This document shows positions 1,500 to 2,032 of a stretch of 35,903 nt of DNA, in pieces. This DNA comes from Nitratireductor sp. ZSWI3 (lineage in GTDB: Bacteria > Pseudomonadota > Alphaproteobacteria > Rhizobiales > Rhizobiaceae): contig NZ_JANKOF010000045.1 in assembly GCF_024655565.1 (NCBI RefSeq), forward strand, positions 1 through 35,903, in the 5' to 3' direction. The notes below the pieces were generated by a model, which was given only the letters and a program-made list of their open reading frames with translations, had not been told where the DNA came from and did no database searches. The translations under genes were made by a program, and so were the position numbers. The first letter of the stretch is position 1. Each line of letters begins with the position of its first letter.

Positions 1500-1787
1500 A
1501 TGGGCAGGGGAATCTTCGCAGCCGCCGTTGGGTTGGCGCTGTTGCTATCGATTGTCGCGGAGAGTTGGGCCGAACGGCTTTTGCCGGTTGCGGAGCCAAA
1601 GCTGTATTCTCAGCTTGCCAGAAGCCGTGGGGGTGGCTGCAAGAGCGTCAGCTCCTGTCGCGAAGCGGTGATCATGTGGTGCAACGGTTATAGCCGTGCA
1701 GACGGGGACGGTGACGGGATCCCCTGCGAGAACGTCTGTCCCAACAAAGCGGTCGTAGACAAGATCAGGAAGGAAATCGGCTGCTGA
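1500..1787 (+). CDS. Secreted excalibur calcium-binding-domain protein
   Basis: The 95-residue product has a signal peptide (hydrophobic core about 5-20, likely cleavage after SWA at 22-24). The mature part carries an excalibur-type domain: Cys47, Cys53, Cys61, then the DGDGDG loop at 68-73 followed by IPCENVC with Cys76 and Cys80, and a terminal Cys95. The loop resembles a short EF-hand and the family is thought to bind calcium outside the cytoplasm; the cysteines probably form disulfides. No partner or substrate can be read from the context. The start is the ATG right after an in-frame TTG; no clear Shine-Dalgarno sequence precedes it, so the start is less certain than the gene. Confidence 0.85.
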   Translation: MGRGIFAAAVGLALLLSIVAESWAERLLPVAEPKLYSQLARSRGGGCKSVSSCREAVIMWCNGYSRADGDGDGIPCENVCPNKAVVDKIRKEIGC

Positions 1788-1810: not shown

Positions 1811-1842
1811 AAAAAACAAAGGCCGTTCCCGAAGGAACGGCC
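1811..1842 (-). terminator. Strong rho-independent terminator of the acs-side transcript
   Basis: A perfect 9-bp stem, ggccgttcc (1821-1829) against ggaacggcc (1834-1842), closes a 4-nt loop. On the minus strand it is followed by TTTGTTTTTT (1820 down to 1811), a textbook U-run. Read on the plus strand the tail is only CCCGTGTTTT, so it may also weakly stop the excalibur-gene transcript. It lies 85 bp past the stop of the 22-codon ORF and about 230 bp past acs. Confidence 0.9.
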
Positions 1843-1860
1843 CCGTGTTTTCAAGTTCTC

Positions 1861-1916
1861 GCACGGTCCTGGCGCTGGCTCCGCTGTTGATCTGATCCAG
1901 CGAAGCCAGTCCGTGC
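1861..1916 (-). ncRNA. Long hairpin in the RNA between the 22-codon ORF and the terminator
   Basis: Two 12-nt arms (1875-1886 and 1898-1909) pair around an 11-nt loop, and gcacgg (1861-1866) pairs with ccgtgc (1911-1916) outside them. The one irregular pair in the inner stem is a G-U wobble in minus-strand RNA but a C-A mismatch in plus-strand RNA. That favours the minus strand as the functional transcript. The structure sits just before the strong terminator, so the minus-strand RNA from about 2010 to 1811 could be a small structured mRNA or an sRNA. I do not recognise the family. Confidence 0.5.
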
Positions 1917-1926
1917 TTCCTGCGCT

Positions 1927-1995
1927 TCAGCGGAGAGGCTGCTCCCCGCGAAGGCAATCCATCGAGACCACGCTTGAACGGAAATCACTCGACAT
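1927..1995 (-). CDS. Putative 22-residue small protein or leader peptide downstream of acs
   Basis: A 22-codon ATG frame starts at 1995 and reads MSSDFRSSVVSMDCL then a short polar end. It is preceded by AAAGGAGGTG (2010 to 2001), close to a full anti-16S match at a good distance (5-6 nt). The peptide has no hydrophobic segment and one Cys. It is followed by a long hairpin and a strong terminator, so it may be the only ORF of a short transcript, or a tail cistron of acs, 74 nt downstream of the acs stop. No function can be given. The strength of the ribosome binding site is the main reason to think it is translated; conservation was not tested. Confidence 0.55.
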   Translation of the reverse strand: MSSDFRSSVVSMDCLRGEQPLR

Positions 1996-2032
1996 TGGAC
2001 CACCTCCTTTCAGTTCGTTGACGTCGACCGCA

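Follow-up and report, generated by a model that had tools for sequence, protein, structure and literature searches.

Immediately downstream of acs in the 35,903-nucleotide contig that we analyzed (hereafter the window), the minus strand carries a self-contained unit that extends from promoter-like boxes to a terminator at approximately positions 2060–1811. With a probability of roughly 60%, we interpret it as an independently transcribed small mRNA or sRNA, about 200 nt long, that belongs to an Alphaproteobacteria-wide family that would include CC2171 and has ribosome engagement rather than a peptide as its product. Sequence comparison supports this reading, as the RNA appears to be an independent, class-wide unit in which a 16S-tail complement, a start codon and a bounded ORF are found together with no apparent constraint on the peptide. 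The family has so far been known only in fragments. It would join an Rfam sRNA of Caulobacter and, probably, the new Sinorhizobium meliloti sORF with the highest translation efficiency, a link that we did not find in the searched literature. It would also provide a natural message in which ribosome docking, not the protein, is the apparent selected feature, in a class where, in Caulobacter at least, most genes lack a Shine–Dalgarno (SD) sequence. Such a message would allow a direct test of whether bacteria gauge or adjust their initiation capacity by RNA.

The identity of acs is backed by Pfam matches to AMP-binding and ACAS_N, and its stop codon (2072–2070, minus strand) lies immediately upstream of the RNA unit. 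On the same strand follow, in this order, −35- and −10-like boxes, a short leader, the complement of the 16S rRNA 3′ tail, an ATG, 22 codons, a TGA, two hairpins and a terminator. The reading frame occupies positions 1995–1927 (ATG 1995–1993, TGA 1929–1927) and encodes the peptide MSSDFRSSVVSMDCLRGEQPLR. Hairpin 1, GCGGGGAG-CAGC-CTCTCCGC (1949–1930), is backed by covariation and codon use, bears the motif GGAGCARCCU and ends at the stop codon. Hairpin 2 (1916–1861) consists of an outer 6-bp stem (1916–1911/1866–1861) and an inner 12-bp stem (1909–1898/1886–1875) with a single U–G pair, which on the other strand would be an A–C mismatch. A pre-terminator motif CACGG (1847–1843), found in the family as UCACGG, GACAAUGG or GACCAUG depending on the lineage, overlaps the start of an intrinsic terminator identified by the terminator scan (1844–1811: stem 1844–1819, T-rich run 1818–1811); the terminator stem is listed on the plus strand too, where the convergent gene lies. 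Compared with shuffled sequences, the 259 nt downstream of acs form a more stable fold (z = −5.9; 0 of 200 shuffles as good). The initial annotation had listed a strong ribosome-binding site, the 22-codon ORF, the 12-bp stem with its outer 6-bp stem, the terminator and the strand-directional G–U pair, and all of these are present on the minus strand. Its extent of 1811–2016 holds for those parts, but the start lies further upstream: it had missed the promoter-like boxes at 2060–2032, because of which the unit is apparently larger.

The block in front of the ORF, GAAAGGAGGTGGTCCA (2011–1996, minus strand), forms an extended SD around the core AAAGGAGGTG (2010–2001) and pairs over 16 nt with the end of the genome's own 16S rRNA, the duplex having an energy of −30.0 kcal/mol. 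The best SD duplex among 16 selected long ORFs of the window reaches −19.4 kcal/mol, which bears out the early remark that the anti-SD match is far stronger than at most genes of the window; the match is in fact longer than had been stated. The 14-nt core AAAGGAGGTGRTCC occurs exactly at only two sites in the 5.2-Mb genome, the RNA locus and the complement of the 16S gene, and two more sites appear when one mismatch is allowed, against 6 for a reversed-pattern control. To 385 genomes we applied the pattern GAAAGGAGGTGRTCCRND, which demands no start codon and bars only C at the second base of the start codon. It was found at 62 places in 61 genomes (a total that includes locus L240 and three matches antisense to 16S), and the reversed pattern matched once. 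A start codon exactly follows the block in 57 of the 59 non-16S places (ATG 31, GTG 22, TTG 4); of the remaining two, one has an ATG one base earlier and one is without a start codon.

A larger set was obtained with a covariance or profile model, from which we retained 105 unique loci scoring 14 or more; below that threshold, L331, which resembles a normal gene, and L327, a shifted variant, were dropped. All 105 loci carry ATG (71), GTG (30) or TTG (4). Substitutions within their blocks comprise 74 that keep the pairing with the 16S tail (A>G, C>U), 12 transitions that lose a pair and 30 transversions, or 24, 12 and 15, respectively, without the two purine positions left free in the search pattern. 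All but one of the 12 pair-losing transitions fall on the first G of the block, and the final C shows 14 C>U changes that are absent from the training set of the model. Since the training loci of the 5′-block model R1 came from the exact pattern and the model scores start codons favorably, these substitution and start-codon data are supportive only and not independent. According to the available text of one study, an SD is carried by just 24.6% of Caulobacter CDSs (PMC4117421), and a maximal SD in front of a nonconserved peptide therefore stands out.

A blastn search with the 259-nt region gave matches in 56 of 100 genomes, its own included, the distant ones mostly limited to the SD and the first codons, and an exact 20-base pattern of SD and ATGTC retrieved at least 118 stretches from GTDB contigs. 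Among the matches listed, the titles cover Hyphomicrobiales, Sphingomonadales, Rhodospirillales, Parvularculaceae, Hyphomonadaceae and others, as well as two nonalphaproteobacterial MAGs. The contigs titled Candidatus Kuenenia (L097) and Gammaproteobacteria (L108) bear the typical block and are probably mis-binned alphaproteobacterial contigs. The R1 model, a sequence-only model built from an alignment (A1) of 70 sequences, matched 119 of 289 genomes of the class. The match extends beyond model position 32 in 81 of these, while in 32 the only matches end at position 30 or 31 and are 16S antisense; of the other six, G376, G159 and G315 carry the block and a start codon, and G235, G260 and G379 are undecided. 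We thus place the real count at about 84 of 289, the 81 plus the three with block and start codon. Within the order, 118 of 199 genomes matched (115 after removing two with 16S matches only and one doubtful), and all 76 matches in a 299-genome sample of the phylum fell within the class; each of the three tallies includes the genome of the window itself. In the class table, two matches past position 32 are found only in G111, whose copies are divergent, one of the MSHG type (L229) and the other of the MSHC type (L167). Judged from these matches, the RNA family is spread through several orders of Alphaproteobacteria. The initial annotation had named a lack of both peptide and stem conservation in relatives as evidence against the unit, and this is clearly not what the class-wide family presents.

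The −35-like box TTGCAT (2060–2055) and the −10-like box CACATT (2037–2032), separated by a 17-nt spacer, were recognized by comparing upstream stretches. As a generic sigma-70 scan found no promoter at these positions, the argument for a promoter of its own is drawn from the comparison of 157 deduplicated stretches. In 62 of them, CTTG begins at −53 to −50 from AAAGG, compared with at most 8 for any other position, and in 74 the best-scoring −35/−10 pair has its −35 box within −55 to −46. From the −10-like box, the 5′ end of the RNA is predicted at around 2025, ahead of a short leader GTCAACGAACT (2022–2012) that is conserved in the family alignment as UCAACaA. An 8-bp hairpin, GTGGAGGC-ATCA-GCCTCCAC (2054–2035, minus strand), lies right after acs between the −35 and −10 boxes; no counterpart was seen by eye in the upstream stretches of relatives that we inspected, and we therefore take it as chance or as part of the promoter. 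At the other end, the terminator scan of the window is weak by itself, as it gave 5 terminator-like sites in 6 kb with 4.4 expected. Across the family, a terminator was found at the expected distance in 171 of 249 elements (a set including repeats from loci retrieved twice) but in only 9 of 420 control windows; measured from −16 to the T tail, the median RNA length is 195 nt. Among the 149 deduplicated elements for which a terminator was detected, 110 match a loose pre-terminator pattern (raw count).

At gathering thresholds, Rfam gave no match in the window. In E-value mode, RF01867 (CC2171) matches the RNA over its full length (1–159 of 159; E = 5.6e-6) with 34.9 bits, which is below the gathering cut-off of 75 that defines formal membership. 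The same model was found in 69 of the 289 class genomes at E 0.01, nine of them above the cut-off, and at E 0.01 it hit two of 14 control genomes, Caulobacter vibrioides and the unrelated Deinobacterium chartae, the latter presumably by chance. CC2171 reportedly stems from Landt 2008. Its consensus starts with cAAcaAucGAAAGGAGGUGAUCCAGUGUCUCAU, that is, with the same GAAAGGAGGUGAUCCR block followed by a GUG start and UC. Rfam files CC2171 as a Caulobacter sRNA, whereas the family of the window is class-wide, led by ATG, GTG or TTG, and ORF-bearing, and the 3′ halves of the two RNAs differ. Intermediates between the types exist, however, with ATG preceding MSHC (L059, L097, L111, L151) or GTG preceding MSSD-like ORFs (L016, L231). 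Because of the full-length match and these intermediates, we regard CC2171 as a single branch within a broader family, though the cut-off is not reached. Another candidate, BASRCI153, was rejected, as it scored 21.8 bits against a cut-off of 137 and its match was without the SD block. In Caulobacter, 133 ncRNAs (106 new and 27 earlier) have been reported, most of them intergenic and in regions that ribosome profiling indicated are not translated; CC2171 is unnamed in the available text of that study (PMC4117421).

Against PLSDB, blastn gave four Sinorhizobium records. The homolog in S. meliloti Ak57 (CP090106.1, L339) encodes the 23-aa peptide MSNEISDLVMDMGEVKESRQPSA at a place where the incomplete gene table of the record lists no gene; its SD differs by one extra A (GGAAGG), and it matches CC2171 over the full length with 34.0 bits. 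The record is titled plasmid pSymB, and its size of 3.72 Mb suggests a chromosome. The small protein SEP1 of S. meliloti 2011, presented as novel and conserved in Rhizobiaceae, has 23 aa and a pI of 4.18, was positive in a Western blot and was detected with one PSM; among 54 nonannotated translated sORFs found by Ribo-seq and proteogenomics, it had the highest translation efficiency (PMC10117765). The pI that we computed for the S. meliloti peptide is 4.177, so that length and pI equal the published values, and a pI rounding to 4.18 is rare (2 of 1,351 random 23-aa ORFs and 0 of 232 other family peptides). From the match in length and computed pI, the homolog is probably SEP1 and hence translated, and a strong SD such as it has would agree with SEP1's top rank in translation efficiency. 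The available text of the SEP1 paper makes no mention of the RNA family (PMC10117765). In the open-licence PMC literature we recognized no paper describing the family, none among the matches listed that combined CC2171, Caulobacter and sRNA, and none that contained two overlapping SD–ATG strings, as a contiguous match would.

Two known systems bear partial likeness to the RNA. CrfA and SisA–D (alphaR8) of Caulobacter also set SD-like against anti-SD-like RNA segments in an alphaproteobacterium, but there the segments lie on separate RNAs and pair to a 10-mer rather than to the 16S tail, and the available text describes no ORF (PMC12559287). Among attenuator peptides and dual-function sRNAs, the rnTrpL/peTrpL system likewise has a short transcript with a short translated ORF; unlike the RNA studied here, it is leaderless, belongs to the trpE leader and yields a functional peptide, and no 16S complement is described in the available text (PMC10117765).

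The mini-ORF is kept in length and not in sequence. From codon 5 onward, pN/pS was 0.91–1.35 in seven groups, values that give no sign of purifying selection on the amino acids. The 5–95% range of ORF length is 18–31 codons, compared with 5–100 and 1–104 when the remaining two frames are read from that point, figures that are descriptive because the 266 ORFs (190 unique) include related sequences and repeats. The peptide of the window matched no Pfam or NCBIfam model, and across lineages the peptides have little in common past Met–Ser, apart from an xQ[PS]x motif in about half of those not of the SH type (present in 49 of 97 ORFs, missing from 48). The codons of the recurrent EQP motif are nearly fixed (GAG for 37 of 38 Glu, CAG for 40 of 49 Gln and CCT for 40 of 43 Pro), and of 37 elements, 31 have the underlying GGAGCA in one frame and 6 in another, from which it would follow that EQP/GGAGCARCCU is conserved as RNA. 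The peptide thus seems not to be the product, as the comparison shows no amino-acid selection while the start codon and the ORF length are kept. In five loci, Azospirillum among them (L069, L104, L118, L187 and L317), the same 5′ block opens an ORF of 56–59 codons with a signal-peptide-like N terminus, which looks as if the mini-ORF had turned into a secreted small protein in that lineage.

The initial annotation had expected either a conserved peptide, and thus a gene, or conserved stems, and thus an sRNA. What emerged is a third pattern in which the initiation signal and the ORF length are kept, the peptide is not, and the stems partly covary. We counted covariation among 26 family-level relatives in two hand-drawn helices, hairpin 1 and the outer stem of hairpin 2. 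In these, 89.9% of the cells are paired, and double changes occur in 7 of 16 pairs and 21 cells, compared with shuffled means of 3.6 and 6.2; the 18 further pair types do not exceed chance (shuffled mean 16.2; 60 of 500 shuffles). The numbers are 91.8% paired and 4 of 8 pairs with double changes for hairpin 1, and 88.0% and 3 of 8 pairs for the outer stem, counted over 8 pairs. The inner part of hairpin 2 is too variable between relatives for alignment. On these counts, part of the stems covaries among close relatives.

In the consensus fold, the SD pairs with GGAUUGCCUU inside the ORF, at a candidate cis anti-SD that resembles the 16S tail (TGGATTGCCTTC, 1961–1950, minus strand). In 135 deduplicated elements, the duplex of the SD with the element's own +12 to +104 stretch averaged −15.4 kcal/mol, compared with −12.9 kcal/mol for dinucleotide shuffles, and the pairing reached a p of 0.05 or less in 31.9% of them; it is also stronger than the pairing with the 3′ half (mean z −1.29 vs. 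−0.47). The duplex of the window element has −17.7 kcal/mol against a shuffled mean of −14.3 kcal/mol. Often, the cis partner is a 16S-tail look-alike at +33 to +56; it reads GGAUUGCCUU in the window, CCUGGAUCnUCGCCUC in the Caulobacter type and GGAGCAGCCUC in the others. In full-length folds of 60 elements, the SD core is not more hidden than in shuffles (unpaired 0.268 vs. 0.261), and a special closure of the SD was thus rejected; in the same folds, the start codon is unpaired somewhat more often (0.541 vs. 0.426). Covariation tests lent the candidate no support: the variable purine after the SD (R14) covaried significantly neither with its cis partner (p = 0.44), a covariation that was rejected accordingly, nor with the pre-terminator motif (p = 0.56). 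The five A–U cases at the SD–cis-partner pair in the consensus fold come from closely related elements and could trace back to a single event. Since the full folds show no extra hiding and the covariation tests were not significant, the helix between SD and ORF is plausible but unproven. A pairing of UCCR with the pre-terminator CAYGG was also rejected (covariation p = 0.56). In their 3′ halves, the family members L293 and L065 reproduce the 16S tail sequence GGATCACCTCC exactly.

From these features we infer a cellular role in which ribosome docking would be the selected act and the cis mimic the switch. Free or mature 30S subunits would dock on the extended SD, and the docked ribosomes would translate a few codons, opening the cis helix between the SD and the 16S-tail mimic within the ORF. 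Ribosome loading would then toggle the RNA from masked to ribosome-filled and back. As output, the RNA may occupy initiating ribosomes, acting as a decoy that favors or disfavors SD-led messages, or it may expose its anti-SD-like segment to other mRNAs. We put forward only tentatively, as one possibility, the full proposal that a class-wide RNA of 200 nt combines a 16S-tail complement with a 16S-tail mimic and, through peptide-blind translation of its mini-ORF, acts as a switch that detects or sequesters free initiating 30S subunits, thereby tuning SD-led versus non-SD-led translation.

The roles may also be reversed, in that the RNA would be a trans-acting sRNA with the anti-SD-like segment (GGAGCARCCU, GGAUUGCCUU or CCUGGAUCnUCGCCUC) as its seed, the SD-like block hiding that seed and ribosome binding gating its release. 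By duplex energies the segment is able to pair with SD-type sequences, the codon usage (37 of 38 Glu as GAG, 40 of 43 Pro as CCT) points to conservation of GGAGCARCCU at the RNA level, and other anti-SD sRNAs have been described in Caulobacter (PMC12559287). For hiding a seed, however, an ordinary SD-like stretch would suffice, whereas the block matches the 16S tail as far as UGAUCC and has kept its start codon at 57 of the 59 places, and the seed sequence varies between lineages; we find this reading rather doubtful. A role as a CrfA-like sponge of anti-SD sRNAs such as the alphaR8/SisA family, for which a sponge has been demonstrated in Caulobacter (PMC12559287), is improbable. Pairing of GGAGG with the alphaR8 core UUUCCUCCCU is possible, but over just 5 bp and with −8.7 kcal/mol, compared with 15–16 bp and about −29 kcal/mol for the 16S tail; UGAUCC, the start codon and the ORF length would be left unexplained, and for want of high complementarity to UUUCCUCCCU the alphaR8 sponge was rejected.

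Similarly slim is the chance of an ordinary small-protein gene. The retained ORF, strong SD and stop codon speak for it, as do the probable translation of the S. meliloti homolog and the predominance of one frame for GGAGCA (31 of 37), but they are set against a pN/pS of about 1 in all seven groups, peptides that share little between lineages but Met–Ser and a half-present motif with codon constraint at the RNA level, and the lack of a Pfam or NCBIfam match for the window peptide. The two ideas of the initial annotation that the evidence favors are a small mRNA and a putative dual-function RNA, given the RNA's own promoter-like boxes, its class-wide conservation, the kept start codon and short ORF, and the homolog that is probably SEP1. 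Its third idea, a leader peptide, falls together with an attenuator, because the downstream gene at 1500–1787 is convergent, no gene follows on the same strand in the window, and neighbors differ between lineages. That the RNA is part of the acs 3′ UTR, or attenuates a following gene, is highly improbable even though it lies directly after acs, where read-through may reach it, and an acs-like neighbor cluster recurs in 20 loci; it has promoter-like boxes of its own, other neighbors in other lineages and a convergent next gene.

The flanking genes gave no common function across lineages: the neighbor cluster was read as acs in 20 of the retrieved loci and the neighbors are others in other lineages. 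In L040, an S4-domain gene (Pfam), which we take to be TlyA-like, lies upstream on the opposite strand, and 31 sphingomonad loci share a neighbor cluster that we read by eye as the antisense of an S4-domain gene. In the window, the convergent gene facing the terminator stem of the RNA (1500–1787, plus strand) has 95 codons and a signal-peptide-like start, and its product gives a weak match to the Excalibur calcium-binding domain (E = 0.0017; 19.1 bits, cut-off 22).
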